In this document: positions 1,732-56,283 of the stretch, piece after piece
Layout: each line of letters starts with the position of its first letter
Position numbering within the stretch: position 1 is the stretch's first letter
Assembly: GCF_003269425.1 (NCBI RefSeq)
Contig: NZ_CP030104.1
Span: 3,319,001 to 3,383,000, forward strand
From: Flagellimonas maritima
GTDB lineage: Bacteria > Bacteroidota > Bacteroidia > Flavobacteriales > Flavobacteriaceae
DNA: 64,000 nucleotides
Direction: 5' to 3'
Program-made: the position numbers and the translations under genes
Notes under the pieces: generated by a model
Database searches by the model: none
The model's input: the letters and a program-made list of their open reading frames with translations, nothing else
What the model was told of the DNA's origin: nothing

Positions 1732-1780
1732 GGTTCTTGGTTCCTGCATCTTAACACTTGAAACCTTACACTTGTTTCGT
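1732..1780. repeat. Degenerate heptanucleotide array (7 units)
   Basis: Read in one phase the sequence is ggttctt, ggttcct, gcatctt, aacactt, gaaacct, tacactt, gtttcgt. Position 5 is C and position 7 is T in every unit. It lies in the 354-bp gap between the flippase and the next minus-strand gene. No coding frame here looks genuine. The same 7-bp period recurs in other gaps of this window with different units. Confidence 0.55.
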
Positions 1781-1859
1781 TCCAGGGTTTGACATAAGGG
1801 GTGTAATCAAAATTGGGCTTAGGGGAATCTTGAACTATTAAACCATCCTTTAAAGAAAA

Positions 1860-1890
1860 ACCCCGTAGCGGATAAATCCAACTACGGGGT
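1860..1890 (-). terminator. Rho-independent terminator (minus strand)
   Basis: A 9-bp perfect stem (accccgtag / ctacggggt) with a 13-nt loop is followed on the minus strand by TTTTTCTTT. It lies about 120 bp past the stop of the minus-strand gene at 2009-3262, so it either ends that transcript after a long 3' untranslated stretch or ends a separate short RNA from 1890-2008. No T-run follows on the plus strand. Confidence 0.75.
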
Positions 1891-2008
1891 AAACAACTAA
1901 CCAACCTAAAAACTATCGTTATTCGATAATCGAGATTTAAAAGCTCCGAAACTTACTTCGATAATACTATATGGTTATCTCACTAATTTATGGGGCTATC
2001 CCAAAAAT

Positions 2009-3262
2009 TTACTGAACTCTAGAACTTCTTGTTCTAGTACTTGAAGTATTACTTCTTCTAGAACTATTGTTTCCAGTACTCCTTTTTACTGTAGTAGTTC
2101 TTGTGCTTTTGGAAACAGTTCTTTTGGGAGAACTACTTCTGCTTGCAACCGACCTACTGCTTGTGCTCTTTCTGGCCTCTGGCCTTTTGTACGTATTTTT
2201 AGTACTGCGAGTCACTGTTTTACTTCTTGGTGTAGAGGTAACCTGTCTTCTGGTAACAGTCCTGCTGTTTGGCTTTTGTGCAACCTCCTTCTTGGTTACC
2301 GTTCTACTGGTATTACTCCTAGATGCAACATTTCCTCTTCTATAATCACTCTGTTTTACTGTTCTAGTACTTCTATTATTTCTAGCTACAGTATTACTGG
2401 AACGATTTGCGGTAGTACCTCGTCTGTTGTTTGTTTGAGCTACAGACCTTCGTGTAGTAGAACTTCTGTTTGCACTACTAAACCTATTATTGTTATTAGA
2501 CTTACCGACATTTCGACCTGTAGATCTATTGCTTCTGGATGCAACACCCGCTCTTCTTACATTATTGTCATTTCTTACTGCAACCCTTCTATCATTTCTA
2601 TAGATATCAGATCTTCTATTTCTATTAAATCTATATTCTCTTCCAACTTGTGCGTAAGCTCTACGAACATTGTTCCTATATGGTCTGTGCCATGTATATC
2701 TTACAGGTGCATAATATCTTCTATAAGGAGTGGTCCAAACATTGCAAAAATTTACTGCAGGTCTGGCAAACCATCTGTGAAATGGTCTATACACATAACG
2801 TCTGTTATAAATATTAATGAATCCCGTATGATGACTAAAAGCTCCACCATTGTAAAAAACATTCAATCCACCAAGTCTTCTGACCCTACCATTCCTGTAC
2901 CATACATCTACACTACCAATTTGAGAAACACGACCATAGAAATCATAAAATATTGGAGTATTTTCAACTTGGATTACAGCTCCAAAATCATCAAACTGAA
3001 CAAAAGGATTATAATCGAAACCTGAATTAAAGGTGATACCGACGTTCCCAACCTGGGCACCGATACCTACATTAACGCGATTATCAACGTAAAAATCGAA
3101 TTCCCCGTCAGGATAAACTGAAAACGTTACGCCATCCTCAATAAAAATGAACGAATTTCCGTAACGATAATTGACGGTAGCAACCTTATCTTCAACCGTT
3201 GCGGCCTTGGTAAAAACTGTACCAAAAAAAACCGCTGCAATAATAAGTACTGACTTTTTCAT
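2009..3262 (-). CDS. Secreted protein with Arg/Ser/Thr-rich low-complexity tail
   Basis: A 417-residue protein of unknown function. The start is placed at MKKSVLIIAAVFFGTVFTKA, a clear signal peptide; the frame stays open for 31 codons further upstream but those encode no export signal. Residues about 25-190 form a beta-rich segment with DGVTFSVYPDGEFDFYV and many Asn, Phe and Tyr. From about residue 200 to the end the chain is strongly basic and repetitive, dominated by R, S, T and N in SNRSTR/SRTVTKK-like motifs, probably disordered. The tail may bind acidic polymers such as polysaccharide or nucleic acid (inference). It has its own upstream region and is separated from the T9SS operon by a terminator. 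Confidence 0.7.
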   Translation of the reverse strand: MKKSVLIIAAVFFGTVFTKAATVEDKVATVNYRYGNSFIFIEDGVTFSVYPDGEFDFYVDNRVNVGIGAQVGNVGITFNSGFDYNPFVQFDDFGAVIQVENTPIFYDFYGRVSQIGSVDVWYRNGRVRRLGGLNVFYNGGAFSHHTGFINIYNRRYVYRPFHRWFARPAVNFCNVWTTPYRRYYAPVRYTWHRPYRNNVRRAYAQVGREYRFNRNRRSDIYRNDRRVAVRNDNNVRRAGVASRSNRSTGRNVGKSNNNNRFSSANRSSTTRRSVAQTNNRRGTTANRSSNTVARNNRSTRTVKQSDYRRGNVASRSNTSRTVTKKEVAQKPNSRTVTRRQVTSTPRSKTVTRSTKNTYKRPEARKSTSSRSVASRSSSPKRTVSKSTRTTTVKRSTGNNSSRRSNTSSTRTRSSRVQ

Positions 3263-3338
3263 ACTATAAGGTTTTAAGTTCTGGAAGTAACTATTTACTT
3301 TCCATTTACTTAATACCAAACAGCGTGCCAAAAAAATA

Positions 3339-3372
3339 AAGTTCCTGATAAACAACTGTTTATCAGGAACTT
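3339..3372 (-). terminator. Strong rho-independent terminator of the T9SS operon
   Basis: A 15-bp perfect inverted repeat (aagttcctgataaac / gtttatcaggaactt) with a 4-nt loop is followed on the minus strand by TATTTTTT. It sits 29 bp past the stop of the OmpA-family gene, so it closes the three-gene unit 10107-3401. A weaker T-rich stretch on the plus side means it could work in both directions. Confidence 0.9.
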
Positions 3373-3400
3373 ATTTCATTTTTTAATAAACTTAAAGAAA

Positions 3401-5335
3401 TTAATTTTTTATAATGAACATAGATCTTCTGTTGAGTTGATGTGCTTTTTCTGAACACTTCACGCCATTGGAGCATTCATTTTGAAGCTGGGATTCACCA
3501 TAACCTTTAGCAGATAGTCTACTTCTATTTATCCCCTTCTTAACCAGCCATTCTAATGTAGACTTAGCTCTCCTATCCGAAAGAAGTTCATTGTACCTAT
3601 CATTTCCTCTGGAATCTGTATGGGATTCTATATGTATGACCAATTGAGGATACTCCTTCATGGCCGAAAGAATTTTGGCAAGTTCCACTTCTGCATCAGG
3701 CCTAATGTTGTGTTTGTCAAAATCAAAATAGATGGGCTGTAAATCAAGTCTGCAACCTAAATCGTTTACTGGACAATCGGGGGGTGTTAATTCCAAATTA
3801 ACCTCTAAAGTTGAAGAACCTACAGGAGTGTTGATCAATTTCTCATCTGGTTGATAATCCAACTCACTATTCGTAGCTCTAACAGAATATTGGTTGTTAC
3901 AATCTGAGATTCCATCAAAATTGTATGAACCCTTACTATCGGCTACGGTCTGTGAAACTACATTATTATTCTTATCAAGCAGCATAACTCTTGAGCCAGG
4001 TAAGATTTTTTTTGTGTCCTTGTCCACGACCAATCCTTTGATTAGAGTGGAACAGCTTTCAGCAAACCTATAAATGTCGTCTGACTTGCTCCCTTCATTA
4101 CCATTTCTATTGGAAGACAGATATCCAAACCGTTTTTCTTCGTTGATAATGAGACCGAAATCATCTTGATTTGTATTAATAGGTTTTTTTAGATTTGTTA
4201 CTGCTTTAAAAGTACCTGGATTGTTCAAGGATATGACAAAAACATCCAATCCACCAAGGCCTACGTGTCCATCGCTTGAAAAATATAAGTTGTTGTTATC
4301 GCTCAAATAAGGAAAACTTTCCCTTGCCTCGGTATTTACTCTGGAACCTAAATTTACTGGACTCCCGTAACTTCCATTTTTCAGTACTTCGACATACCAG
4401 ATATCTGACATTCCCAAAGTGCCCGGCATATCCGAAGAAAAGTAAAGTCTGGTTTCATCCCTGTTCAATGCAGGGTGGGCCACGGCATACGAATCGCTAT
4501 TAAAAGGCAATTCGCTTACATTGCCCCAACTACCGTTCGTGCTTTTGGTAGCTTTATAAATTTTTAGGCTTACCAACTTATTTTTTCCTCTTTTTTTCTT
4601 TCCGTCTATATAGTTGTTTCTAGTAAAGTACATGGTTCTACCATCTTTTGTAAAACAGGCCGAAGACTCATGGTATGGCGTATTGATATCACCTTTAAGC
4701 GATGCAGACTTGGAAAATAGCCCATTTTCGTCCAAATCCGCTACATATAGATCTAGGTAGGGCAGTCCGTTCCAATCATGGATTTTATCGCCTTGTGTGT
4801 TTTTGGAAGTTGAAGCATATACGATACTATTTCCGAAAAATGAAGGGCCAAAGTCCGAACTGGACAATCCGTTTGAAGCATTTAGGACTTTATATTCCTT
4901 TGACTCAAAATCGATAATGCTATCCAGTGTATATTTATTTTTTTGATAGCTTTCGGCTATTGAACTATTTTGTGCCGCATCGGCATAAGAACCCATTATC
5001 TTATTAGCCTCTTCATAGGCTCCAATACTTTTAAGAGATTGAGCGGCTCTGTGTTTATAGATAGGTTCTACCTCGTTTGGAAATTTTTCCAATAGTCTTT
5101 TATACCATATGGATGCTTCCTTGTATTCGCTATTAAAATAATAAGTGTCGCCCAACTTTTTAAATACCTGTGCGGATTCGTATCCATCCTCAACAACTTT
5201 AAGGTATATTTTTCTGGCATCTATATAGGAGTAGGTATCAAATTCCTCGTCCGCTTTTTTTACTTTATCCTTTTGTCCAAAAATGCTTCCTGTAATGCAT
5301 ATAAACAGTAAACATATTCTCAATTTTTGTAGCAT
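3401..5335 (-). CDS. OmpA family protein with TPR and PD40 propeller (T9SS-associated)
   Basis: A 644-residue outer-membrane-associated protein. Order: signal peptide (about 1-20, ending FGQ), TPR-like helices (about 22-130), PD40-type beta-propeller repeats (about 150-420, with SSD and LYFSSD motifs), a carboxypeptidase-regulatory-like fold (about 430-515), and a C-terminal OmpA domain (about 530-644) with YFDFDKHNIRPDAEVEL, HTDSRG and LSDRRAKS, which binds peptidoglycan. Proteins of this layout follow PorP/SprF genes in Bacteroidota and are thought to anchor type IX secretion or gliding components to the wall, as PorE does. It is last in the operon adhesin-PorP/SprF-OmpA, 19 bp after PorP/SprF. 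Confidence 0.88.
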   Translation of the reverse strand: MLQKLRICLLFICITGSIFGQKDKVKKADEEFDTYSYIDARKIYLKVVEDGYESAQVFKKLGDTYYFNSEYKEASIWYKRLLEKFPNEVEPIYKHRAAQSLKSIGAYEEANKIMGSYADAAQNSSIAESYQKNKYTLDSIIDFESKEYKVLNASNGLSSSDFGPSFFGNSIVYASTSKNTQGDKIHDWNGLPYLDLYVADLDENGLFSKSASLKGDINTPYHESSACFTKDGRTMYFTRNNYIDGKKKRGKNKLVSLKIYKATKSTNGSWGNVSELPFNSDSYAVAHPALNRDETRLYFSSDMPGTLGMSDIWYVEVLKNGSYGSPVNLGSRVNTEARESFPYLSDNNNLYFSSDGHVGLGGLDVFVISLNNPGTFKAVTNLKKPINTNQDDFGLIINEEKRFGYLSSNRNGNEGSKSDDIYRFAESCSTLIKGLVVDKDTKKILPGSRVMLLDKNNNVVSQTVADSKGSYNFDGISDCNNQYSVRATNSELDYQPDEKLINTPVGSSTLEVNLELTPPDCPVNDLGCRLDLQPIYFDFDKHNIRPDAEVELAKILSAMKEYPQLVIHIESHTDSRGNDRYNELLSDRRAKSTLEWLVKKGINRSRLSAKGYGESQLQNECSNGVKCSEKAHQLNRRSMFIIKN

Positions 5336-5354
5336 AGTATGTGTCTTTATGTTT

Positions 5355-6305: not shown

Positions 6306-6363
6306 GCTGATTATTATCTTGTTCAAAAAACGTTGCTTTTTCATGATCGACTTTCTTGGCTTT

Positions 6364-9300
6364 CTAATCACGGTTGATGTATAGGTATCCGTTATAACTA
6401 TCCTCACCTGGATTTTCAGCTGGGAAGGTCAATGTATAGAAATAGGTTCCACTTGGCAGCTCTCTATCTTGAGCTATAGTATTTCTACCTTCGGATATAC
6501 CCCTGAAAAGATTATTTCCTTGACCATAATTATCAGTCTCATACACTTTTACACCCCAACGATTGAATATTTTAACATTATTATTGGGATAATTTTCAAT
6601 ACCTACAATTTGGAAATAGTCATTGAACCCGTCACCGTTTGGAGTTATACCATTGAAGATTTCAAAATCACCACCTCCATCTGCACAGAAACCTGTAACA
6701 TCGACTATGGTCGGGTCATCTTCTGAATAGCTATCGTCGTCAGAATCGTCGAATACTAGAACATCAAAATCAACAATGCTTGCAGTGACTCGTGCTTGAT
6801 TTTCAACAAAAATTGAGTCAATGTCATCTTGGGTAACATCGTAAAGTACACTGTATGTCCATTCTTCACCAGCTGCAAGAATCCCATCTTCACTTTCGTT
6901 GTCTATGACTAATCCACCAACTTCGCCTCCTAAGAGCTCATCAATGATAACCACATTCTCCAAGCTTGCACTACCGCCATTGAAAACCCTAAAATCATAT
7001 CTGATTGTATCATCACACCCGTCATTGTTCAAGTCCAGAACAATAGCTTCTTTAATTAAAGCTATGGGAACAGAGCTATTCGGGCATGCATCATCAGGAA
7101 CAATTATCCTTGTAGGATTGTTGTCAAAGAAATTGTTATTGTCAGAGAAATCGAACACTACCACATCAAAACCGACTGGAGCCCCTGTAACCAAAGCTTG
7201 GTTTACTACCGAACCAAAATCGATATCCTCTTGGGTAATACCATATAATGCCTGATAGGTCCATGTCTCGCCAACGGAGAGTGTGCCATCGTTTCCAACG
7301 TCAGTTCCCTCTATGGGGCCGGGCACCTCACCGCCTAGAAGTTCATCTTCTAGGAAAATCTCCTCCAGATTCACATCGCCGTTATTGGTCACGGTAAAAG
7401 TGTAGAGTATGCTATCGATACAACCATCCGTATCAATATCCACGAGCTCACCTTCCTTGATCAGAGCTATATTTGCAGACCCTTCGGTGCATGCGTCATC
7501 TGGAACTTCTGTTCTTAAGGGATTGTCCTGAAAGAAACTGTCATCATCTGAAAGATCAAATACAGCCGCGTCAAATCCAATTGGAAATCCAGTAACCTGC
7601 GCCTGGTTTACCACTATGCCATTATCAATATCCGGTTGTTCAATATCGTAGGTTGCCTGATAGGTCCATGTCTCGCCAACAGAGAGTATACCATCATTGT
7701 CTACGTCAGTTCCCTCTATGGGGCCAAGCACCTCACCACCGAGCAGTTCATCTTCGAGAAAAATCTCCTCTAGGTCTACATCGCCGTTATTGGTCACTGT
7801 AAAGGTGTAGAGTATACTGTCGATACAACCGTCCGCATTAACATCCACTAGTTCACCCGTTTTTAGCAGGCCAATATTGGCAGAACCGTTAGGGCATGCA
7901 TCATCCGGAATTTCTGTGCTAGTGAACCCATCCTCAAATAGACTATCGTTATCTGAAAGATCAGATACAGCTGCGTCGAATCCTATTGGAAATCCATTAA
8001 CCTGGGCTTGGTTTTCCACTATGCCATTATCGATATCCACTTGATTAATAGTATAAATTGCCTGATAGGTCCATGTCTCGCCAACGGAGAGTATACCATC
8101 GTTACCATCGTCAGTTCCTTGTACTGGACCGGGCACCTCACCATCGAGCAGTTCATCTTCGAGAAAAATCTCCTCGAGGTCAACATCTCCTATATTGGTA
8201 ACTGTAAAGGTGTACAATATGCTGTCGATACAACCGTCCGCATCAACATCAACAAGTTCACCTTCCTTGATAAGTCCAATATCCGCCGATCCGTTAGGGC
8301 AGGCATCATCCGGAACTTCTGTTCTAGTGAACCCATCCTCGAATAGACTATCATCGTCCGAGAAATCAGAAACCGATGCGTCAGATTCCAACAGGAAGCC
8401 TGTAACTGTTGCTTGATTTACCACTATAGTATTATCGATATCTTCTTGAGTGATACCGTAGAGCGCTTGATAGGTCCATGTCTCGCCAACGGAGAGTATA
8501 CCGTCTTCACCTACGTCAGTTCCTTCTAAGGGGCCAAAAATCTCAATATTGCCAAACAACGGAACGTCTTTGAGGACGATTTTCTCTAGGTCAACGTTGC
8601 CCGTATTTGTAACAGTAAAGGTGTACAGTATACTGTCGATACAGCCATCCCCATCAACGTCAACAAGTTCACCTGTTTTAATTAGCCCAATATTAGGTTC
8701 TTGACAATCAGAGAGGTCAACTATAGTTGGGTCATCCTCGAGCACGCTGTTGTCATCGGAGTCATCACTTACGGAATCCCCTGGTTGTCCTTGGACATCT
8801 GCGGTTACAGTTGCTTGGTTTTCTACCTCTCCAATATTTAAATCAGCTTGGGTAATATTGTAACTTGCAAAAAATATCCATGTTTCACCGGGATCTAAGA
8901 ATGTGTTATTGTTATCATCTCCAGAGTCAGGTCCGGGAATGATGCCTCCCAAAAGTGGATCGATAAGAACAATATTTTCAAGTACTTGTCCACCGCCTTC
9001 ATTGGTAAGTGTGAAAGTATAATTAATCACTTCACATCCAAGAGATCCATCTGCATTTACTCCTAATTCTCCAGTTTTTATAAGACCAATATTTGGCTGA
9101 CATGCGGAAAGATCAACAATAGTTGGGTCATCTTCCAAGATACTGTTATCATCAGAGAGGTCACTTACGGAATCCCCTGGTTGTCCTTGGACATCTGCAG
9201 TTACAGTTGCTTGGTTTTCTACTTCACCACTAGTTATATCAGGTTGAGTAATAATATAGTTTTCTGTGTATATCCATATTTCATCTGGGTCTAAAAAAGT

Positions 9301-10107
9301 ATCATTATTGTCATCTCCAGAGTTTGGTCCTAGAATTGGATCTGCTCCAAGAAGTGGATCGGTAAGAACAATATTTTCAAGTATTTGCCCTCCTCCTTCG
9401 TTTGTAAGTGTGAAGGTATATTGTATAATTTCACACCCGGGTGACCCAGCAAAATCCAATGCTTCCCCAGTTTTTATCAGTCCTATATTAGGCTGGCATT
9501 CTTCAATGTTAATTATGGTTGGGTCATTTTCCAACACACTTTCATCATCTGAAATGTCACTTACAATGTTTGCTGCATCGCCAACCACATTAGCTTGTAC
9601 AGTAGCACTGCTTTCAACTTGTCCATCATCAATATCGGTTTGCGTAATATTGTATTCAGCATCAAAAACCCAAATCTCACCTACACTCAAAATACCATCA
9701 TTGCCAACATCCCCAGCGGGAAGGCCTGGAATATCGCCAAGCACATCATCAGTAACTATGATGTTTTCCAATGCTTCATTTTCTGTACTTTCATTGGTTA
9801 CAGTATATGTGTATTGTATTGTGGCACAACTAGGAACTCCAGCGGAATCAGATGCAGAACCGGTCTTAACAAGCCCAATTCCACCAACAAAATTTTCTAA
9901 TCTACTACGGGATAGATTTTCTTTTGAAGAAACCAGAGGTGTTGTTGTATAACTATTACCAAAAACTTTCTCATTTATTTTTTCTTTTCCTATATCAAAC
10001 GCTAGAATATCTGATGTACACAGAAAACTCAAATAAATAAAAAAGTATATAAGCTGCGAAAATCCCTTTTTTTTATTTCTTGATGAACAATGGTTGTTTA
10101 AATACAT
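6364..10107 (-). CDS. DUF11-repeat surface adhesin with gliding-motility C-terminal (CHU_C) sorting domain
   Basis: A 1247-residue exported protein. After a signal-like N-terminus (hydrophobic about 17-37) come eight tandem DUF11-like beta-sandwich repeats (about 77-1145), each opening with IGLIKTGEL or a variant, containing YTFTVTN and closing near DDSLFEDGF. Residues about 1147-1247 form a type B T9SS sorting domain: ITPNGDGFNDYFQI, VKIFNRWGVKVYE, GTYFYTL. It should cross the outer membrane through the type IX system and stay on or leave the surface with help from the adjacent PorP/SprF. Repeats 4-7 are near-identical in DNA at an exact 405-bp spacing, a sign of recent duplication. Ligand unknown. 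Confidence 0.9.
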   Translation of the reverse strand: MYLNNHCSSRNKKKGFSQLIYFFIYLSFLCTSDILAFDIGKEKINEKVFGNSYTTTPLVSSKENLSRSRLENFVGGIGLVKTGSASDSAGVPSCATIQYTYTVTNESTENEALENIIVTDDVLGDIPGLPAGDVGNDGILSVGEIWVFDAEYNITQTDIDDGQVESSATVQANVVGDAANIVSDISDDESVLENDPTIINIEECQPNIGLIKTGEALDFAGSPGCEIIQYTFTLTNEGGGQILENIVLTDPLLGADPILGPNSGDDNNDTFLDPDEIWIYTENYIITQPDITSGEVENQATVTADVQGQPGDSVSDLSDDNSILEDDPTIVDLSACQPNIGLIKTGELGVNADGSLGCEVINYTFTLTNEGGGQVLENIVLIDPLLGGIIPGPDSGDDNNNTFLDPGETWIFFASYNITQADLNIGEVENQATVTADVQGQPGDSVSDDSDDNSVLEDDPTIVDLSDCQEPNIGLIKTGELVDVDGDGCIDSILYTFTVTNTGNVDLEKIVLKDVPLFGNIEIFGPLEGTDVGEDGILSVGETWTYQALYGITQEDIDNTIVVNQATVTGFLLESDASVSDFSDDDSLFEDGFTRTEVPDDACPNGSADIGLIKEGELVDVDADGCIDSILYTFTVTNIGDVDLEEIFLEDELLDGEVPGPVQGTDDGNDGILSVGETWTYQAIYTINQVDIDNGIVENQAQVNGFPIGFDAAVSDLSDNDSLFEDGFTSTEIPDDACPNGSANIGLLKTGELVDVNADGCIDSILYTFTVTNNGDVDLEEIFLEDELLGGEVLGPIEGTDVDNDGILSVGETWTYQATYDIEQPDIDNGIVVNQAQVTGFPIGFDAAVFDLSDDDSFFQDNPLRTEVPDDACTEGSANIALIKEGELVDIDTDGCIDSILYTFTVTNNGDVNLEEIFLEDELLGGEVPGPIEGTDVGNDGTLSVGETWTYQALYGITQEDIDFGSVVNQALVTGAPVGFDVVVFDFSDNNNFFDNNPTRIIVPDDACPNSSVPIALIKEAIVLDLNNDGCDDTIRYDFRVFNGGSASLENVVIIDELLGGEVGGLVIDNESEDGILAAGEEWTYSVLYDVTQDDIDSIFVENQARVTASIVDFDVLVFDDSDDDSYSEDDPTIVDVTGFCADGGGDFEIFNGITPNGDGFNDYFQIVGIENYPNNNVKIFNRWGVKVYETDNYGQGNNLFRGISEGRNTIAQDRELPSGTYFYTLTFPAENPGEDSYNGYLYINRD
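7200..8690. repeat. Four tandem 405-bp intragenic repeats
   Basis: The string cctgataggtccatgtctcg recurs at 7251, 7656 and 8061, and with one change at 8466, always exactly 405 bp (135 codons) apart. Flanking bases are also highly similar, including the segments for EEIFLEDELL and VDADGCIDSILYTFTVTN. Two further repeats (8781-8840 and 9177-9236) share a second conserved stretch at 396 bp (132 codons). Boundaries are approximate. Confidence 0.85.
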
Positions 10108-13458: not shown

Positions 13459-13476
13459 ATGTTAAAATTTGAACTT

Positions 13477-20841: not shown

Positions 20842-22766
20842 GTTATGAATTTTTGAATGATTACTTCAATAAGTGCCAGAAGTAGTGCTAAAATAATAAA
20901 CCATTTCCAGTATGCCGTTATACTGTTTTCAGCTTCAAGAAAATCAAATAATGATGTAATTGAATCTTGTCTGATGGAACTATTTATGTTATTCAAATCC
21001 AGATAATTTAACTTACTCTCGGTTCTAGGATAATTAAAACTTATTTTTTTAATGGGTTTTCCACTTCTTTTAATATTAAAGATACCATCAACTGTGGGAT
21101 TATCACTAAAACTGATTCTTACTTTATGTGGAAAACTTTGCTGCAGGGGAATAAATTCATATCCTTCTTTTGAAACATTCAAGATATCATCGCTTCCCAA
21201 ATCTATTGGAACATCAATTGTATTTGGCCTTCCTACGGTGTGGTATGTTCTAGGAACCCTAAGGCCGAATGTAGCCATGTTATAAAATGTAGGAACAATC
21301 AATGGGGAATTTTTAAAATTTGAGTTATCGCGTTCCAGCGGAGCAGAAAAAAAATAAAAACCATCGGTACCTGATAAAAATGCATCGCCTCCTTCTAAGG
21401 ATAAAATCTTCAATGCCGTAGATTTTGTTTTGAAGAACTGTTTTACATTGGGATATTGAAAATTATATACCTTTTTTTCAAAAACATTTTTATAAAGAGG
21501 GTGTTCAAAAGAAATATTGGTTATTTTTTTATCGACAACCAATTTTTGATTCAGTTGTGTTGCAAAAAAACCTGAAAGAAATTGATTATAGGATGTCAGA
21601 TCACTTTCCAAAGAGGGGATAACGATTACGGTCCCGCCATTTTCTTTAAGAGTCTTCAATACTTTCTGCAAGCTTTTGGGAATAGATGGCAAATTATCCA
21701 AGATTATAACATTTTGTTCATCTAAAAAACTATAGTCCAATTGGCCAAGCGAATATTTTTTAAATATGAATTCCTCCTGCGTAAATAATCTGTCCAAATA
21801 ATCATCATTGGAATTAGCTATTGCCAATACTTTTATTTTTTCTTTTTTATCGATATTGAAAAAGAATTGATTATCATAGGTTAAACTATTGTCCATAATT
21901 TTTAAAATTCCTTCCAATGGCTGATTGTCCGGTATAGTAAATACTACTTTGGCTTTTCCATTGGTATCGAATTTAGCAGAAGTCTTGGCAATTAAAAGTT
22001 CGCCATTATAAAGTGATATGGGAACATTTTCATTGTCGTTATTCCCTGATAGCATTACAGAAAGCGAAGACGGAGTAGCTTGGTTTTCAATTAAAAAAAC
22101 TGAATCTATTGCAATGTTTTGGGCCTCTTTTGGTCGAACGGGCACTAAATAGTTAGTGACTGTGGAATCCAAGGTGCTATTTGAAGCATACATTCGCTCC
22201 TGAAAATCTGATAATAGGATTAAATTTTTAATGGAGGCATCCGAATTTGAAAATAATGTATTGGCCTTTAGTGCAATACCGTTAAAATCCAATTGTTTAT
22301 GCGAATAAGGGAGCGACAATAAATTATTCTGAATATCTTTTATGGTTATATCCTTAAAGGTTTTTTCGTTTGTGAACAGACTAAAAACACTTTCTGAATC
22401 AATATTTTTTATCAGTTCCTGGGTAGACTTCTCCAATAGTGAAAGACCGTTGCTCTTAGCCTGCATACTAAAAGAGTCATCCAAATAAACCACGGTTTCT
22501 TTTTGTTGCAGTGCAGTTTTTTTGGAAGAAAAAGGCTGTGCAAATGCAAAAACAATGGCTGTAAGCATTAACAGCCTTACCATAAGCAATAACCATTTTT
22601 TTAGAGTGTTGCTTTTTCTGGATTCCGAAACCACTTTTTGCAGCATGGCCACATTGGTGAAAGGAGTTTTCTTAAATCTTCGTAATTGAAATAGATGGAT
22701 TAAAATAGGAATGATTAGAAGAACTAGAGCCCAAAGGATTTCTGGATGTTTAAACTGCATTCCCAA
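20838..22766 (-). CDS. BatA domain-containing membrane protein
   Basis: A 642-residue inner-membrane protein. The N-terminal 80 residues carry the BatA/aerotolerance-type motif (FKHPEILWALVLLIIPILIH, then QLRRFKKTPFTNVAML, then a second helix around 60-78). A von Willebrand-like segment begins with VVYLDDSFSM near residue 90. A long periplasmic part follows, with a single helix at the extreme C-terminus (WFIILALLLALIEVII). Homologues are widespread in Bacteroidota and act in envelope or stress functions that are poorly defined. ATG at 22760 is an alternative start. It heads a unit with the dihydroorotase-like gene by a 4-bp overlap. Confidence 0.82.
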   Translation of the reverse strand: MGMQFKHPEILWALVLLIIPILIHLFQLRRFKKTPFTNVAMLQKVVSESRKSNTLKKWLLLMVRLLMLTAIVFAFAQPFSSKKTALQQKETVVYLDDSFSMQAKSNGLSLLEKSTQELIKNIDSESVFSLFTNEKTFKDITIKDIQNNLLSLPYSHKQLDFNGIALKANTLFSNSDASIKNLILLSDFQERMYASNSTLDSTVTNYLVPVRPKEAQNIAIDSVFLIENQATPSSLSVMLSGNNDNENVPISLYNGELLIAKTSAKFDTNGKAKVVFTIPDNQPLEGILKIMDNSLTYDNQFFFNIDKKEKIKVLAIANSNDDYLDRLFTQEEFIFKKYSLGQLDYSFLDEQNVIILDNLPSIPKSLQKVLKTLKENGGTVIVIPSLESDLTSYNQFLSGFFATQLNQKLVVDKKITNISFEHPLYKNVFEKKVYNFQYPNVKQFFKTKSTALKILSLEGGDAFLSGTDGFYFFSAPLERDNSNFKNSPLIVPTFYNMATFGLRVPRTYHTVGRPNTIDVPIDLGSDDILNVSKEGYEFIPLQQSFPHKVRISFSDNPTVDGIFNIKRSGKPIKKISFNYPRTESKLNYLDLNNINSSIRQDSITSLFDFLEAENSITAYWKWFIILALLLALIEVIIQKFIT

Positions 22767-22837
22767 CTTTGATTGAACAAATATAGGGATTAAAATTATA
22801 GTTAATGGTCAGGGGACGAATCTGGATGATATTCTTG

Positions 22838-22914
22838 AAGGGTCAAGGGTGAAGCATAATATTTTAAGCTTAGGGCTTAGGGCTTAGGGCTTAGGGCTTT
22901 TGACTTTGGGTTCA
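22838..22914. repeat. Heptanucleotide array, GGGCTTA type
   Basis: Units in phase are aagggtc, aagggtg, aagcata (22838-22858), then after a short AT spacer aagctta, gggctta three times, gggcttt, tgacttt, gggttca (22866-22914). The centre is a perfect 4-copy run of gcttagg (22868-22895). The array is noncoding, in the gap between the GT2 gene and the start of the BatA-type gene, so it lies upstream of the latter. Confidence 0.85.
22856..22871. repeat. 16-bp direct repeat, copy 1
   Basis: ataatattttaagctt occurs here and again, identical, at 24099-24114, 1243 bp away, bracketing the GT2 gene. Each copy leads straight into a heptanucleotide array. Confidence 0.8.
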
Positions 22915-22930
22915 ATTTTTTATTTCTTAC

Positions 22931-22993
22931 AAACAACAAACAACAAACAACAAACAACAAACAACAAACAACAAACAACAAACAACAAACAAC
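22931..22993. repeat. Nine perfect copies of AAACAAC
   Basis: The 7-bp unit aaacaac is repeated nine times without error from 22931 to 22993, ending 5 bp before the GT2 stop codon at 22999. A run this perfect is expected to slip during replication, so copy number should vary between isolates. It is outside the reading frame of the GT2 gene. Confidence 0.95.
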
Positions 22994-22998
22994 GCTAC

Positions 22999-24006
22999 TT
23001 AACAAAAGAAAAAGTAATCTTGCATTGCAATTTGGTTTAGCTCATTCAAATATTCCTTGATTTCCTTTTGGGCTTGTTCATTGGCAACAGTTACAATACT
23101 CTGTGGGTTGACCAATTCCTTTAATACTGAAAAATGAAATAGTTCTTGTCCATAGATTTTTTTATTGATTTTTTTTGGATTGTCACATAGCCAGACAAAA
23201 TCGACATCCTTTTTCAGAAGATATTTGGCAACATTCTTCCCTTTAAATCCTGCACCCCAAATGACTAAAGGGCGTTTGGTTTTGTAATCTAGTTTTAAAA
23301 AAAAATATAGTTTGAGATTCAGAAAATAATTTTGGGCATAATGTTCGCTCGTTCGGGAGGTTCTGGTATTATAATCCCTCCACAAATGTAGAACTTCACT
23401 GCATGGAATAACGTTTAATCCTTTTTCATAAAACCGAAAAGTAAGGTCGTAATCCTCAGGATATCGATTGGGACTAAAGGCACCACATGCATCAAAATCT
23501 TTTCGGAATACCATCCAGCATGGAGACGGAATGACACATTCTTTATATATTTCACTATAGTTGGTTCCCTTTTCGGTCAATCGGTTCAACCAAGCTTCAT
23601 AGCGAGCATACCCATTGCTAATTCCCGTACCAGAAAAATACCGCACTTGTCCAACCGCTATATTTCCTACACCGGTCTTAGCTAAAGAATCGGCCATGGT
23701 TTTAAGCCGACTTGGTTTCATGATGTCATCTGAATCCATTCGGGTAATTAAAATACCCGAACTTTGAGAATATGCTGTTCGCAGCGCAGGTATGATTCCT
23801 TGCCCCGTGTTTTTGATAACTTTTATTCTTTCATCTATTTTCGCATAAGAAATGAGCAATTCCAAGCTATTGTCTTCCGAGTGGTCATCAACTGCGATAA
23901 TTTCCCAATTTTGATATGTTTGGCTTATGATAGAATCCAAGCATTCAGGTAAAAAGAGAGCAGTATTTTTAAATGGAATTAGGATACTTACCAAAAAGTT
24001 TTGCAT
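22999..24006 (-). CDS. Glycosyltransferase family 2 with C-terminal Rossmann-like domain
   Basis: A 335-residue enzyme. Residues 1-215 form a GT2 (GT-A) domain: VSILIPFKN at the start, DDHSEDNS, RMDSDDIMKP as the DxD metal/nucleotide-sugar site, and YPEDYDLTFRFYEKG as the acceptor-side acid motif. Residues about 245-335 look like a nucleotide-binding Rossmann unit (PLVIWGAGFKGKNVAKYLLK, then VWLCDNPKK), found at the end of some GT2 proteins. It has no membrane helix. The donor and acceptor are unknown. It is bracketed by a 16-bp direct repeat and heptamer arrays, and no glycan gene is next to it, so it may be a separate acquisition (inference). Confidence 0.88.
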   Translation of the reverse strand: MQNFLVSILIPFKNTALFLPECLDSIISQTYQNWEIIAVDDHSEDNSLELLISYAKIDERIKVIKNTGQGIIPALRTAYSQSSGILITRMDSDDIMKPSRLKTMADSLAKTGVGNIAVGQVRYFSGTGISNGYARYEAWLNRLTEKGTNYSEIYKECVIPSPCWMVFRKDFDACGAFSPNRYPEDYDLTFRFYEKGLNVIPCSEVLHLWRDYNTRTSRTSEHYAQNYFLNLKLYFFLKLDYKTKRPLVIWGAGFKGKNVAKYLLKKDVDFVWLCDNPKKINKKIYGQELFHFSVLKELVNPQSIVTVANEQAQKEIKEYLNELNQIAMQDYFFFC

Positions 24007-24098
24007 GCAGATAATTTAATAGCGAGGGGCTAATAACTAGTTGTTTGCAAATTATCGATTTTAGAAATGGGAAGCTTATTAAATTAGAAGCTGTTTTT

Positions 24099-24114
24099 AT
24101 AATATTTTAAGCTT
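24099..24114. repeat. 16-bp direct repeat, copy 2
   Basis: Identical to 22856-22871 (ataatattttaagctt) and in the same orientation. It is followed within 2 bp by the heptamer array at 24116. Confidence 0.8.
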
Positions 24115-24115
24115 T

Positions 24116-24171
24116 AAACTCTAAGCTCCAATCTCCAATCTCCAATCTCTAGGCTCTAAGCACTAGGCTCT
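24116..24171. repeat. Degenerate heptanucleotide array (8 units, ARKCTCT type)
   Basis: Consecutive units are aaactct, aagctcc, aatctcc, aatctcc, aatctct, aggctct, aagcact, aggctct. Positions 1 (A), 4 (C) and 6 (C) are invariant. It fills the gap between the stop of the SGNH hydrolase gene at 24218 and the start of the GT2 gene at 24006, both on the minus strand. Confidence 0.9.
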
Positions 24172-24217
24172 ATTATTAAACTTGAACTTGATGCTTGTCC
24201 TTGAAATTCTCATATCC

Positions 24218-24907
24218 TTACTCCAAAGATTTAATTGCTTTTTCAACCAAAATTTCCATGATTTTGTATCCTTTTGCATTCGGATGGACGCCATCCTCTG
24301 CCAGCTCCAATGGAAGTCCATTTCTATTGTCGGCCATTTCACTGAAATAATCGAGATAGAAAATTTTCTTTTCTTCTGCCAAATTTTTGAGCATGCTGTT
24401 GAGTTTTGGAATCTTAATATCGGGATTGAGTCCAGGCCTCCATGAATAGTCAAAAACGGGAAGTATGGAACATATAATAGGTTTTATATGATTTGCTTCT
24501 GCCAATTCTACCATGGAAAGAATGTTGTCTTTGATCTGCTCTAGGCTCATTGGGCCTGTATTGCCAGCTATGTCATTTGTGCCGGCCAAAATAACAACAA
24601 TTTTAGGTTTCAAATCAATTACATCTTGTCTAAAGCGTAACAGCATTTGGGGTGTGGTCTGTCCACTGATTCCTCTGTTCACATATAAAGGATTCTCAAA
24701 AAAGCCAGGACTTTTGTTAGACCAAAGCTCTGTAATGGAATTACCCATAAAAACAACCCTTTTTTCTTTTTCTAAAAGATGTTGGGGCTTTTTAGCATCC
24801 ATAGTTTTTAAGGAATCATTCTGTTTTTCATATTTGGAGAGGTTTGGCCAGTCTTGGGCATTCACCGTTAAACCCGACAAGCATAGGATTATCAATAAAA
24901 CTTTCAT
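24218..24907 (-). CDS. SGNH/GDSL hydrolase family protein, secreted
   Basis: A 229-residue exported esterase-like protein with signal peptide MKVLLIILCLSGLTVNAQ. The SGNH blocks are intact: VFMGNSITE (Ser57, block I), GISGQT (Gly, block II), GTND at 109-112 (Asn, block III), and DGVHPN with Asp205 and His208 (block V). It resembles the PAF-acetylhydrolase subunit type that acts on acylated sugars or glycans in the periplasm. It is 1 bp after the stop of a secreted protein gene of unknown function and is part of the run 26989-24218. A shorter frame at 24163-24453 is a shadow. Confidence 0.9.
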   Translation of the reverse strand: MKVLLIILCLSGLTVNAQDWPNLSKYEKQNDSLKTMDAKKPQHLLEKEKRVVFMGNSITELWSNKSPGFFENPLYVNRGISGQTTPQMLLRFRQDVIDLKPKIVVILAGTNDIAGNTGPMSLEQIKDNILSMVELAEANHIKPIICSILPVFDYSWRPGLNPDIKIPKLNSMLKNLAEEKKIFYLDYFSEMADNRNGLPLELAEDGVHPNAKGYKIMEILVEKAIKSLE

Positions 24908-49901: not shown

Positions 49902-50109
49902 TATATTTTATTATACAAAGGAGTTTGAGCAGTCTTATGATCTTTTATAGAATGGTTATAGTTCTCAATGAAACTATTGTAATTCACGTTGTTGACGAAT
50001 TCTATATTAAAAACCATAAATTAACTTGAAAGAGCTATTTTAAGAATCTTTGTAAAAGATCTAATTATCCCAGTCCTAAATTTAGATACTAGGTAATTTT
50101 AATAAATTC

Positions 50110-50397: not shown

Positions 50398-50458
50398 CTG
50401 CAACATGATACAAATCTATGCAAATTGACAGATTAAATAATGTTAATAAAAATATAAT

Positions 50459-50764: not shown

Positions 50765-50790
50765 ATGCTATTCAATGCAAAAATAGCATA

Positions 50791-51249: not shown

Positions 51250-51266
51250 GATTATAATTTACAAAA

Positions 51267-51294
51267 AAAGCCATTCAGAATTCCAAATGGCTTT
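51267..51294 (-). terminator. Rho-independent terminator of the DUF937 gene
   Basis: Stem aaagccatt / aatggcttt (9 bp) with a 10-nt loop and a minus-strand T-run. It is 21 bp past the stop at 51316. Confidence 0.8.
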
Positions 51295-51315
51295 GTTAAT
51301 TATTGTTAAGATGCT

Positions 51316-51957: not shown

Positions 51958-51992
51958 TTCTATAGTGTTTAGTTAATAGCACAAAATACAAA

Positions 51993-52016
51993 AAAGAACC
52001 TATAGAAAAGCTCTTT
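51993..52016 (-). terminator. Probable terminator of serA
   Basis: An 8-bp stem with two wobble pairs (aaagaacc / agctcttt on the plus strand), an 8-nt loop and a minus-strand TTTTTT run, 14 bp past the serA stop. Weaker than the other terminators here. Confidence 0.5.
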
Positions 52017-52029
52017 GACCAAAAATGGA

Positions 52030-52980: not shown

Positions 52981-52989
52981 AAGTGTTGA

Positions 52990-53116
52990 ATTCTTGGTTC
53001 TCTATTCTTAATTCTCTTTTCTTTATTCTTGCTCTTTTGTTATGTATAAGCTTGTCTTGTAGACTTGTCTCTTTTCTTCTATCAATACTCAAAACTTAAC
53101 ACTTTGCACTTAAAAC
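52990..53116. repeat. Two degenerate heptanucleotide arrays between serC and serA
   Basis: Array 1 (52990-53031) reads attcttg, gttctct, attctta, attctct, tttcttt, attcttg, with TTCT invariant at positions 2-5. Array 2 (53082-53116) reads tcaatac, tcaaaac, ttaacac, tttgcac, ttaaaac; each starts with T and ends AC. The stretch between them is less regular. Both lie in the non-coding gap of a co-directional gene pair. Confidence 0.8.
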
Positions 53117-53127
53117 TGATGGATTGA

Positions 53128-54192
53128 TCACCCTTTCTTCTCAAGTTCACTCATAATATCCACCAACACCCCTACGCTATCAAGGGGTAGGGCATTATAC
53201 ATGGATGCACGGTAACCGCCTACGGAACGATGCCCGTTGATTCCATTGATTCCTGCTTCTTTGCATTTTTCCTCAAAAATATTTTTTAGGGAGTCATCTG
53301 TAATATTAAAAGTTGCATTCATGATAGAACGGTCTTCCTTGGCGGCAAAGCCTGAGAAAACAGGGTTGAGTTCGATTTCAGAATAAATGAGATTGGCTTT
53401 CCTTTCATTGATTTCCTCGATTGCCGCAATACCACCAAGGTCTTTTAGCCACTGCATGGTCAACATGGAAACATAAACAGCAAAAACGGGTGGCGTGTTG
53501 AACATGCTGTCCTTACCAATGTGTACTCCGTAATCCATCATGGAAGGTATTTTTTTTGAAACTTTCCCAAGAATATCTTCTTTAACGACAACAAGTGTAG
53601 TTCCTGCAGGGCCCATATTCTTTTGAGCACCTGCATATATCAAATCGAATTTTGAAAAATCCATTTGACGCGAGAAGATATCAGAACTCATGTCACAAAC
53701 TAAAGGAACATCGGTTTTTGGAAATTTCTTTATCTGGGTTCCGAAAATAGTGTTGTTGGATGTAAGATGGAGGTAGTCCAAATCTGAGGGAATCGAGTAG
53801 CCCTTTGGAATGTAATTGAAATTTTGGTCCTGTGAAGAAGCTACTTCGACTATTTCACCGAACAATTTGGCTTCTTTGATAGCTTTTAAACTCCAGGTTC
53901 CCGTATTTACATATCCTGCTTTCTTGTTCAATAAGTTATAAGCGGCCATAAGGAATTGCATACTGGCACCCCCTTGAAGGAACAACGCCTGATAACCTTT
54001 TCCTTCTAAATCCAAAAGTTCCAGGGCCAAAGAACGTGCTTTCTCCATAATTGCCACAAACTCCTTGCTTCTATGGGATATCTCTATCAAAGAAAGACCT
54101 ATTCCATCCAGTTCCATAACTGCCTCGGAAGCTTTCAGCATAACCTCTTGTGGCAAAATACAAGGCCCTGCGCTAAAATTGTGCTTTTTCAT
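53128..54192 (-). CDS. serC: 3-phosphoserine/phosphohydroxythreonine transaminase SerC
   Basis: A 354-residue PLP enzyme for the second step of serine synthesis and part of vitamin B6 synthesis. The start is the ATG at 54192 (MKKHNFSAGPCILP, the usual N-terminus); a TTG further up gives five extra residues. YAGAQKNMGPAGTTLV contains the PLP lysine, and CDMSSDIFSR and GHRSVGGYRASMYNALPLDS are family motifs. It lies upstream of serA and downstream of the LuxC-type reductase gene, all on the minus strand. Confidence 0.95.
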   Translation of the reverse strand: MKKHNFSAGPCILPQEVMLKASEAVMELDGIGLSLIEISHRSKEFVAIMEKARSLALELLDLEGKGYQALFLQGGASMQFLMAAYNLLNKKAGYVNTGTWSLKAIKEAKLFGEIVEVASSQDQNFNYIPKGYSIPSDLDYLHLTSNNTIFGTQIKKFPKTDVPLVCDMSSDIFSRQMDFSKFDLIYAGAQKNMGPAGTTLVVVKEDILGKVSKKIPSMMDYGVHIGKDSMFNTPPVFAVYVSMLTMQWLKDLGGIAAIEEINERKANLIYSEIELNPVFSGFAAKEDRSIMNATFNITDDSLKNIFEEKCKEAGINGINGHRSVGGYRASMYNALPLDSVGVLVDIMSELEKKG

Positions 54193-54321
54193 ATGTTGGT
54201 TTATCAATAGTAAATTTCATTAGTTCAAATAAAAATTGAGTCAGTGTTCTGTAATTTAATCAAGCAATAAAGGTCTTAAAAAATCTTTGATATAGAAACA
54301 GCTTTTAGCATTTGAAATCTT

Positions 54322-55368
54322 TTAGAGCTGTAATAAAAAATCTATAGTGTCAACACCATCGGCATAATCGTTTAATCTTGGTTTTTGGGTTTCGCCAAAA
54401 TGTATTTCATTAGAAAATAATCCTTCAGAAACTATGCACTGGATTTCTTCTTTTTGAATGTTTGTTTGTTCCCTTAATCTTGGAAGTGAATCATAATATT
54501 CGTAAAATAAGGAAGCAATAGGGGATGAAAGGCTCGTATCTTCTTTTAAAATCAGAAATCCGTTGTCCAAAATCTTAAACTCGCTCATCAAATAAACGGC
54601 TTTGTTATAATCATAGTTATTCGCATATTTATGATGATATATAATTTTTTGAAAACCAAAAATCGCCTTAAAGAATTCATCAAAATTATATGCTTTGGGA
54701 ACGTATATTTTTGAAACATTTCTACAGCCAAGACCGAAATATTTAAAAATATCTTCTCCTAATTCCCGAAGCTGATTTTTAGTCTCTTTACCTGTCAATA
54801 CAGCAACGGCGTTACGATTTTTTCGAATAATGCTTGGTTTTCTTCCAAAATAGTACTCAAAATATCGACCGGTGTTATTGCTTCCGGTGGCAATCACTGC
54901 ATCGTAGTTTTCAAATTTTCCTTCTGTGAATACTATTTTGTCTACTAGGGATGGTTCCTGCTCAATTAAATAATTGGCAAAATAGGGAAGTAATACGGTA
55001 TCATTTGAGGATAGTTTTGCCAAAACTTTATTGCCCGTTAATAATACACATAGAAAATCATGGAACCCTACCAAAGGGATATTGCCGGCCATAATGACAC
55101 CAACAGTTTTTGGCTCACTTGTTCGATTTTGCTTGTACTTTGATAACCATTTGGTCAAATTTTCATGGGTCAATTGCTTTGACCACTGCTCAAGGGAGAA
55201 TAATACACTTTCCTTGGTAAACCAACCATTTTGCTGTCCTGCTCGAATGATAACATCATTCAAATCATTGTATTTATTATTGGTTTTTATATTGTGATTA
55301 TCGCAGTGATCATGGATATAATTTCCAAGTTTAACAAAAGCTTCCAATATTGATTTATGTGCCGTCAT
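54322..55368 (-). CDS. Acyl-CoA reductase (LuxC family)
   Basis: A 348-residue NAD(P)H-dependent reductase like LuxC, which turns activated fatty acids to aldehydes. Visible motifs are VIMAGNIPLVGFHDFLCVLL, NKVLAKLSSND, DAVIATGSNNTGRYFEYYFG and LGEDIFKYFGLGCRNVSKIYVP with the active-site Cys. The same gene is commonly found beside serC-serA and a divergent ferredoxin in flavobacteria, suggesting shared control of reductant use (inference). It has no signal peptide. Confidence 0.88.
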   Translation of the reverse strand: MTAHKSILEAFVKLGNYIHDHCDNHNIKTNNKYNDLNDVIIRAGQQNGWFTKESVLFSLEQWSKQLTHENLTKWLSKYKQNRTSEPKTVGVIMAGNIPLVGFHDFLCVLLTGNKVLAKLSSNDTVLLPYFANYLIEQEPSLVDKIVFTEGKFENYDAVIATGSNNTGRYFEYYFGRKPSIIRKNRNAVAVLTGKETKNQLRELGEDIFKYFGLGCRNVSKIYVPKAYNFDEFFKAIFGFQKIIYHHKYANNYDYNKAVYLMSEFKILDNGFLILKEDTSLSSPIASLFYEYYDSLPRLREQTNIQKEEIQCIVSEGLFSNEIHFGETQKPRLNDYADGVDTIDFLLQL

Positions 55369-55372
55369 TATA

Positions 55373-55404
55373 TTTGTACACTAAACCACTAGGGTTTATT
55401 TTTG
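55373..55404 (+). promoter_or_regulatory. Bacteroidota-type promoter of the ferredoxin gene
   Basis: TTTG at 55373-55376 and tatttttg at 55397-55404 are 20 bp apart, which fits the -33 TTTG / -7 TAnnTTTG consensus well. The leader to the ATG at 55457 would be about 45 nt. This is the best complete promoter match in the window. Confidence 0.6.
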
Positions 55405-55456
55405 TGTAAAAGTAAGCATGCCCAAATAATTACGGCGTACCAAGAAAAAGAAAATT

Positions 55457-55810
55457 ATGGCAATCATTATAACAGACGAATGCATCAATTGCGGGGCTTG
55501 CGAGCCTGAATGCCCAAATACCGCAATTTATGAGGGAGCAGATGAGTGGCGTTATAGCGACGGCACTTCACTCTCCGGAGATGTGGTTCTTCCCAGCGGA
55601 AAGGCTGTTAATGCCGATGATGTTCAAGTTCCCATCAGCGATGAAATATATTATATATCCCCAGATAAATGTACCGAGTGTATGGGTTTTCATGAAGAAC
55701 CGCAATGCGCTGCGGTATGTCCTGTGGATTGTTGTGTCCCGGATGAAGATATTGTAGAAACGGAAGAAGAACTGCTAGGAAAACAGAAATTTATGCATCC
55801 TGAGGAATAA
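55457..55810 (+). CDS. 4Fe-4S dicluster ferredoxin
   Basis: A 117-residue electron carrier with two cluster motifs: Cys9, 12, 15, 19 ([12 protein letters not shown]) and Cys72, 75, 84, 88 ([18 protein letters not shown]). Two further Cys follow directly (DCC). The region between the clusters is longer than in clostridial ferredoxins, as in the Allochromatium-type. It is divergent from the LuxC-type reductase gene, 88 bp away, and could supply it or another reductase with electrons. A MITE-like element follows. Confidence 0.93.
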
Positions 55811-55832
55811 GAATAAAAGTCTTTTAAATTGG

Positions 55833-55962
55833 GAGACTGTCTAAAAAGATATATCTTAAATTAACTTTCACATCGAGCGGAATGGAGATGTATTCAAAAT
55901 CAATATGTTAAAGTTCTCGACTCCGCTCTAACTGACTGTGGAAAGGCTTTTTAGACAGCCTC
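55833..55962. mobile_element. MITE-like inverted-repeat element
   Basis: The ends are gagactgtctaaaaag (55833-55848) and ctttttagacagcctc (55947-55962), a 16-bp inverted repeat with one mismatch. The inside has a second, degenerate pair around gagcgga (55875) and tccgctc (55922). No frame encodes a protein. The sequence type (tcgagcg...cgactccgctc) is, from memory, common as an interspersed repeat in flavobacterial genomes. T-runs next to the right end could let it serve as a terminator for the ferredoxin gene. Confidence 0.7.
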
Positions 55963-55968
55963 TTTTTT

Positions 55969-56106
55969 ATGCAAGAAAAAGAAGAAATATATAACGGATT
56001 TTGGAAAAAGGCGGGTTGCTTCCTCTCCTTAATTGCAATCCTTACCATTATGGCCAGTATTGGATATGCGCTGTACGTATTTTTTGTCCGTCAGATTTTG
56101 TATTAA
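55969..56106 (+). CDS. Small single-pass membrane protein, 45 aa
   Basis: ATG at 55969 to TAA at 56104-56106 encodes MQEKEEIYNGFWKK followed by one hydrophobic helix (about 16-40) and RQILY. The N-terminus is charged and polar, so the orientation is probably N-in. It begins 7 bp after the MITE-like element, which therefore forms its leader. A true gene is likely because of the codon use and the clean helix, but the length makes this uncertain. Confidence 0.5.
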   Translation: MQEKEEIYNGFWKKAGCFLSLIAILTIMASIGYALYVFFVRQILY

Positions 56107-56136
56107 AAGAATCATGTTACCATCAAAACTTCAACT

Positions 56137-56144
56137 TATATTTG
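56137..56144 (+). promoter_or_regulatory. Putative -7 promoter box of ychF
   Basis: tatatttg followed by cacg matches TAnnTTTG. Transcription would start near 56150, which puts both heptamer arrays (56156-56283) in the 5' untranslated leader of ychF. Confidence 0.5.
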
Positions 56145-56155
56145 CACGCTGAAAA

Positions 56156-56283
56156 TCAGTAGTCAGTAATTTAGTGGTTAGTGGTCAATAGTCAGTAATT
56201 GTTGGTTGATATTTTACATAAAATTTGAAATGTCAATCCTCGTATATAAAATCACATATCTTAATTCTAATATCTCAAATCCA
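56156..56283. repeat. Degenerate heptanucleotide arrays upstream of ychF
   Basis: Units at 56156-56205: tcagtag, tcagtaa, (one extra t), ttagtgg, ttagtgg, tcaatag, tcagtaa, ttgttgg. A second short block at 56256-56283 has a 14-bp period: atatctt+aattcta, atatctc+aaatcca. Both lie between the 45-aa protein gene and the ychF ATG. Confidence 0.7.

Follow-up and report, generated by a model that had tools for sequence, protein, structure and literature searches.

The intergenic DNA of Flagellimonas maritima harbors arrays of consecutive heptamers, and 7 nt is a special and specific period in these gaps. The arrays were encountered in a stretch of 64,000 nt (G000:C1:3319001-3383000, hereafter the window) of the single-contig genome of 3,772,469 bp, for which an initial annotation had described five heptameric loci. 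Probably, they originate from local duplication or slippage of 7 nt followed by decay through point mutation, and are tolerated behind genes. Such arrays would be born and enlarged by tandem duplication in 7-nt steps, through slippage during replication or a comparable copying error acting locally, would gain and lose whole units, and would later decay through point mutation. They would persist mainly where a 7-bp insertion is harmless, namely directly downstream of stop codons and in any other gap bordered by the 3' end of a gene. Both slippage as the process and tolerance as the reason for the location are what we infer from the patterns described below.

The period was surveyed in the window plus 80 further stretches of 20 kb (1.66 Mb in total, 44% of the genome). 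A simple in-house ORF caller, rather than curated annotation, delimited 827 intergenic gaps (157.7 kb) and a coding set of 1,358 ORFs of at least 300 nt (1.49 Mb). Segments were scored lag by lag at thresholds of at least 10 and at least 15, with dinucleotide shuffles as the population-level null. At lag 7, the gaps contain 42 segments at the lower threshold (4.2 in shuffles) and 31 at the higher one (0.0 in shuffles). The corresponding numbers at the higher threshold for lags 4, 5, 6, 8, 9, 10, 11, 12 and 13 are 1, 0, 2, 0, 0, 3, 1, 2 and 1, while lags 14 and 21, the harmonics of 7, give 26 and 17. Compared with the 31 intergenic segments, the coding ORFs hold two. The first 1.26 Mb sampled gave the same picture, with 23 lag-7 segments of at least 15 against 0.2 in shuffled DNA and a single one in 1.137 Mb of coding sequence. 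Within the window itself (30 gaps, 5,557 nt, lags 2-30), the lag-match fraction tops at 7, 21 and 14. The lag-7 excess over other lags and over shuffles that had been proposed as a check in the initial annotation was thus sought in 44% of the genome, and the claim survives.

The same period dominates in related bacteria, which were reached through the family 2 glycosyltransferase gene of the window (best 80 of 406 loci). Among these 80, the nearest named relatives of the gene belong to Flagellimonas/Allomuricauda (Flavobacteriaceae), with a best identity of 76%. The intergenic DNA of the relatives contains 20 lag-7 segments of at least 15 against 0.0 in shuffles and 0-2 at each of lags 4-6, 8-13 and 15-20; their coding DNA contains six in 1.36 Mb. 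Counted by locus, 14/80 carry a lag-7 segment of at least 12, and 0-3 do so for any other lag from 4 to 13. At the threshold of at least 10, lag 8 also exceeds the shuffles (11 vs 1.2). Lag-8 arrays with GGTTATTN-like units were seen in three related genomes (L015:15357, L021:9811 and L042:15392-16224) as a minor second period, and in the last of these loci a block with a heptamer-phased stretch recurs at a spacing of 151 bp (L042:15890, 16041, 16192 and 16343). That the arrays are an artefact of chance or of the composition of AT-rich intergenic DNA is already refuted for the array population as a whole by the shuffles of both sets, and has a next to negligible probability, even if one of the five loci of the initial annotation (1732-1780) falls within chance.

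The location of the arrays follows a clear rule. For the counts of location and unit, arrays scoring at least 14 in the F. maritima genome (n=32) and at least 12 in the relatives were used. None of the 32 had to be dropped for the assignment of gap types; in the relatives (80 loci plus 25 stretches), six of 39 arrays lie in gaps cut by the end of the sequence and were excluded, which leaves 33. In F. maritima, 30 arrays occupy codirectional and two convergent gaps, and none is found in divergent gaps, which account for 41.9 of 149.6 kb. Likewise, the relatives have 19 codirectional, 14 convergent and zero divergent arrays, with divergent gaps making up 53.5 of 164.8 kb. Counted by array-bearing gap instead, the distributions are 24, 2 and 0 (26 gaps) and 14, 9 and 0 (23 gaps), and the probability of zero divergent gaps is about 2e-4 and 1e-4, respectively, by hand calculation. 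Moreover, for 13 of the 30 codirectional arrays of F. maritima the upstream stop codon is no more than 15 nt away (4.8 such arrays expected; 0/2000 random placements as high), and the same applies to 6/19 in the relatives (2.3 expected, p 0.012). Near the next predicted start the arrays are as frequent as by chance, with 6/30 ending at a distance of up to 15 nt (4.8 expected); some of these might reach into the promoter or leader of the following gene.

According to the initial annotation, the units were unrelated and their sequence free at each locus. This view had to be given up. After reduction of the heptamers independent of rotation and strand, the 32 F. maritima arrays fall into 25 unit classes and contain seven identical unit pairs where 0.95 are expected. 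None of 1000 letter shuffles within units reaches this number, and random intergenic heptamers give 1.5 pairs with a maximum of six in 200 draws. Between F. maritima and its relatives, 13 identical pairs occur against 1.2 expected (0/1000 letter shuffles as high), in a family set that contains some orthologous arrays twice. Counting distinct classes only, 5 are common to the 25 classes of F. maritima and the 32 of the relatives (0.74 expected, p 0.0002). Still, 18 of the 25 classes were found only once in the sample. The trinucleotide GTY/RAC is present in 18/25 classes of F. maritima (72% vs 45% expected) and in 19/32 classes of the relatives (59% vs 34% expected), with 0/1000 letter shuffles as high in either set. 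This lean was first found on 17 F. maritima classes (13/17) and then seen in six of nine classes from later stretches. In addition, TGA/TCA is enriched in the units, and GTA/TAC and TAT/ATA are depleted, while the bias of other words chosen on the first F. maritima set, e.g. GTCA, was not reproduced in the relatives. Near matches with at most one substitution are no commoner in the arrays than in heptamers drawn at random from intergenic DNA (27 vs 22 within F. maritima, 52 vs 51.5 across species). Hence, the repertoire consists of particular words that recur exactly, leans weakly toward GTY and has no single loose consensus. Relative to the skew of the surrounding stretch, no clear strand bias was found in the 32 arrays (G vs C 16/16; T vs A 18/11 with three ties). 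One array, L138:14044, mixes 6- and 7-nt words (TTTGAR/TTTGARC), so that the step is not strictly seven there.

Not all of the five window loci are equally convincing. Each was compared with 300 shuffles of its whole gap, using the maximum over lags 4-12. For 22838-22993 and 24116-24171, 0/300 shuffles score as high, and p values of 0.02-0.04 and 0.007-0.02 were obtained for 52990-53116 and 56156-56283. In contrast, 1732-1780 gives p 0.32-0.47 over these lags and 0.04-0.08 for lag 7 alone. Within each of the five intervals, 1732-1780 included, lag 7 exceeds 1000/1000 shuffles, but the intervals had been selected beforehand for periodicity; the lag-7 match fraction inside 1732-1780 is 0.55. Tandem Repeats Finder reports period 7 at 22868-22899, 22929-22993, 24126-24172, 52990-53030 and 56156-56197, plus a few items of two to three copies elsewhere in the window. 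Taken together, the arrays at 22838-22993 and 24106-24172 are unequivocal, those at 52990-53116 and 56156-56283 are moderately supported, and the one at 1732-1780 is unsupported. The two moderate loci had been described as heptamers throughout, which applies to the parts at 52990-53030, 53082-53111 and 56156-56197 and not to the remainder. Nor is there always one unit per locus: 22838-22993 combines GGGCTTA, ACAAACA and two copies of AAGGGT(C/G). By eye, the TCAGTAG unit at 56156 is the reverse-complement form of TACTGAC/ACTACTG arrays in L097 and L247. The features are compiled in the table.

Table. Heptamer arrays and adjacent gene in the window (positions within the window).
Feature	Position	Strand	Remark
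Claimed NNNNCTT array	1732..1780	+	Chance-like over the whole gap, lags 4-12
Two heptamers, AAGGGTC and AAGGGTG	22838..22851	+	L086:11177-11270 has 13 tandem copies of the AAGGGTC-type unit
GCTTAGG (=GGGCTTA) array, 4.6 exact plus decayed copies	22868..22907	+	Exact part is 22868-22899 (Tandem Repeats Finder); unit also at L086:11346-11410
ACAAACA array, 9.3 exact copies	22929..22993	+	Begins 5 nt past the glycosyltransferase stop codon
Family 2 glycosyltransferase gene (PF00535)	22999..24006	-	Some relatives have lag-7 segments with other units on its 3' side
Degenerate TTTAAGC/TCCAATC/TCTAGGC array, 9.6 units	24106..24172	+	AATCTCC-type
Degenerate TTCTNNN array, 5.9 units	52990..53030	+	Moderate support
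Degenerate ACTYNNN array, about 4 units	53082..53111	+	Weak to moderate support
Degenerate TCAGTAG array, about 6 units, one indel	56156..56197	+	Moderate support

The window also contains tandem repeats of about 400 bp (7219-9564) within a long ORF on the minus strand (6364-10107), by look an ordinary repeated-domain protein.

Several observations fit the proposed origin by duplication and decay. Perfect arrays, such as TACTGAC with 14.6 copies at L097:12819 or those at window positions 22929-22993 and at L247:16431, and strongly decayed ones both occur. When one gap is compared between two species (L067:11354 and L074:11372), the arrays differ mainly by whole 7-nt units, as judged by eye for this single species pair. 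Turnover is seen as well, since relatives have other units behind the same glycosyltransferase gene and no counterpart of the 24106-24172 array between the same two neighbors (detailed below), and tolerance would account for the location behind genes. The variation among units likewise fits duplication plus point mutation. The variance per column is 0.0315 in F. maritima and 0.0312 in the family, and simulations in which 60-80% of the events are duplications match it (0.0298-0.0305 for 60% duplication with uniform mutation), whereas simulations without duplication fall short (0.0186-0.0225). An apparent architecture of 3-4 fixed and 3-4 free columns was considered and dropped: the permutation test behind it is biased, because one substitution creates two adjacent mismatches in a column, and simulated neutral arrays score as high. 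Its Fisher p values were about 1e-6 for F. maritima and 1e-16 to 1e-18 for the family, but the control at lag 8 also gave 1e-9 to 1e-11 and shuffled DNA 0.003-0.02. An improved column statistic is matched by duplication plus mutation, not by mutation alone.

Other results weigh against this explanation. Decay is weaker in the simulated than in the real arrays (mean deviation 0.21-0.23 vs 0.27-0.31). Plain slippage predicts no single step, yet steps of 5, 6, 8 and 9 nt yield 0-2 segments of at least 15 compared with the 31 at 7 nt, and slippage does not predict restricted units that recur across loci and species. Duplication, decay and tolerance together do not account for the step of seven and the favored GTY and TGA words. 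Furthermore, two-copy lag-7 runs (7-10 nt) exceed expectation by little (22 vs 16.1), and newly born arrays can therefore hardly be seen. Loss of mismatch repair was rejected as a cause, as mutS1 scores above the cut-off in 60/60 genomes of the genus, F. maritima included; it was found in 61/61 genomes of a phylum sample, and the 11 genomes reached through the loci, with L006 left aside, all have a match (10/11 above the cut-off). MutS does not act on loops of more than about four nucleotides, but this would permit steps of 5-9 nt equally and is therefore not the answer on its own. Apart from the choice of seven, the arrays agree with local duplication and decay, and a mechanism that measures 7 bp, as suggested by the initial annotation, may conceivably exist.

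Alternatively, the arrays may be functional, i.e. repeated sites, in DNA or in the RNA of 3' untranslated regions, at which a protein touches some 3-4 nt in each 7-nt step (RAC/GTY core) and accepts different letters, with selection maintaining the phase. The over-representation of GTY/RAC and TGA/TCA in F. maritima and its relatives, the proximity to gene 3' ends and the 3-4 invariant columns kept by some decayed arrays (as in the TTCTNNN array at 52991 or the ATTGNNN array at L074:11372) would agree with such sites. We nevertheless regard this as unlikely, given that column conservation does not surpass that of simulated neutral duplication plus mutation and that the strand in transcript orientation is not constant (15 G-rich and 15 C-rich, 18 A-rich and 10 T-rich among 30 arrays). 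Neither is the 24106-24172 array retained: among the 32 relatives that keep the lipase and the glycosyltransferase as neighbors, none has a lag-7 segment of at least 9 between them. In 14 of these 32, the interval measures 437-461 nt and seemingly contains an extra gene. Lag-7 segments of at least 9 are present in the first 330 nt behind the glycosyltransferase gene in 12/80 loci, with words that vary by species (ATGTCCG in L003, GAAAATT-like in L025, and ATTGNNN in L006, L051 and L067), and further ones were found beyond 330 nt. In the nearest relative, the draft contig stops inside a nearly perfect ATGTCCG array (L003:11014-11097), and arrays of this kind may thus be points at which assemblies break.

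Within the genus, array density looks patchy. No lag-7 segment of at least 10 was found in 100 kb each of G005, G017 and G018 (300 kb in total), while G008, G048, G049 and G050 have 3-4 per 80-160 kb; the latter genomes were picked for arrays at another locus, and their density is no unbiased average of the genus. A sample without segments does not mean a genome without them, as G001 shows no segment in 40 kb and yet locus L005, assigned to G001 by its mutS1 coordinates, has two. In other families of the order, G025, G034 and G036 have no lag-7 segment of at least 10 in 100 kb each, and G027 has two in 100 kb together with two each at lags 6, 8 and 9. The 50 kb sampled from E. coli contain none. 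This unevenness among congeners, along with the very sharp period, the biased units and the peak at lag 7 in plasmids of Nostoc/Trichormus from another phylum, could point toward a dedicated enzyme, such as a polymerase, a recombinase or a reverse transcriptase, which would make copies or duplications of 7 nt and favor particular start words. Such an enzyme seems rather improbable, as fresh two-copy duplications are in little excess and none of three candidate families tracks the arrays in eight genomes, of which five bear arrays and three lack them in the sample. Y-family polymerase is present in 8/8, with or without arrays, Y1 transposase domains occur in G049 alone, and reverse transcriptase domains in F. 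maritima and G008 alone. In F. maritima, two adjacent reverse-transcriptase-domain matches lie at G000:C1:3189093-3191036; they are paired in G008 as well, and the other six genomes have none. A broader proposal would be a process with an intrinsic 7-nt step and word preference (RAC/GTY, TGA) that writes copies behind genes, perhaps coupled to transcription ends, in part of the species of one marine flavobacterial genus and with a cyanobacterial counterpart. We give this idea little credence, but if it were true, period-7 arrays in unrelated bacteria would share one mechanism.

Conceivably, units might instead spread when arrays recombine ectopically or undergo gene conversion with one another, which would homogenize the repertoire and leave seven as the frozen history of a few founders. 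The seven identical unit pairs would be expected from such exchange, and AAGGGTC is followed by GGGCTTA in the same order at window positions 22838-22900 and at L086:11177-11410, two places separated by about 3.19 Mb of the contig. However, a search of the F. maritima genome with 22700-24300 returned, besides itself, a single match at E 0.001 or better, which covers 43 nt inside the array at L086 and nothing beyond it. Moreover, most classes are single in the sample, and units common to other species are left unexplained unless they were transferred or ancestral. We regard this scenario as unlikely. Of the interpretation in the initial annotation, the fixed length and the intergenic position are supported, and in view of this array-only match the arrays do not look like the spread of one element either; the free sequence is not supported, given the restricted units. 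Dispersed REP-like repeats accompany 2/26 array gaps and 18/583 other gaps of at least 80 nt, in small numbers, and no Y1 transposase domain was found in the F. maritima genome. The intergenic DNA also contains short dispersed palindromes around CGAGCGCAGTCGAG, with 5-8 copies per such 14-mer in the sample, which are REP-like by look.

The closest known system is that of the heptanucleotide short tandemly repeated repetitive (STRR) sequences of heterocystous cyanobacteria. STRRs consist of 7-nt units arranged head to tail in intergenic DNA at many loci, with several unit families per genome, and at least three different STRR heptamers are known. The arrays described here are alike in being heptameric, intergenic and multi-locus, and as in STRRs, tandem 7-nt units are present in many intergenic regions. 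In five samples from Nostoc/Trichormus plasmids (250 kb), lag 7 leads with six segments of at least 10 and three of at least 15, compared with three and zero at lag 8 and two and zero at lag 9. These plasmids show several different lag-7 units. In view of these several units and of the different STRR heptamers, the initial contrast between STRRs that share a consensus and arrays that do not is weak. Differences nevertheless exist. The arrays reside in Flavobacteriaceae and hence in another phylum, and by eye their units seem mostly unlike the STRR words: STRR1 and STRR3 are absent from the F. maritima list, while one decayed consensus (class AATGACC) coincides with STRR2. The absence from divergent gaps was established for the present arrays, and may or may not extend to cyanobacteria. 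The arrays behave like STRRs, but are not classed as members, since the taxon differs.

Further parallels exist to bacterial variable-number tandem repeats and simple sequence repeats, which change by slipped-strand mispairing; perfect arrays, decayed arrays and whole-unit differences in one gap are found here, too. Simple sequence repeats as a class are not bound to one unit length, whereas one length dominates in these arrays. Phase-variable heptanucleotide repeats share the 7-nt unit, and a change in copy number could alter expression or frame. Yet, those repeats lie in coding sequence or promoters, while the present arrays are scarce in coding DNA and absent from divergent gaps (0/32). This speaks against such control of expression, although some of the arrays close to a predicted start might be exceptions. 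Perfect arrays could serve as markers for strain typing. The question why some bacteria accumulate tandem repeats of exactly seven bases has, to our knowledge, mostly been raised for cyanobacteria. It becomes testable with a second group, unrelated to the first, in which array density seems to differ inside one genus and location follows a clear rule.

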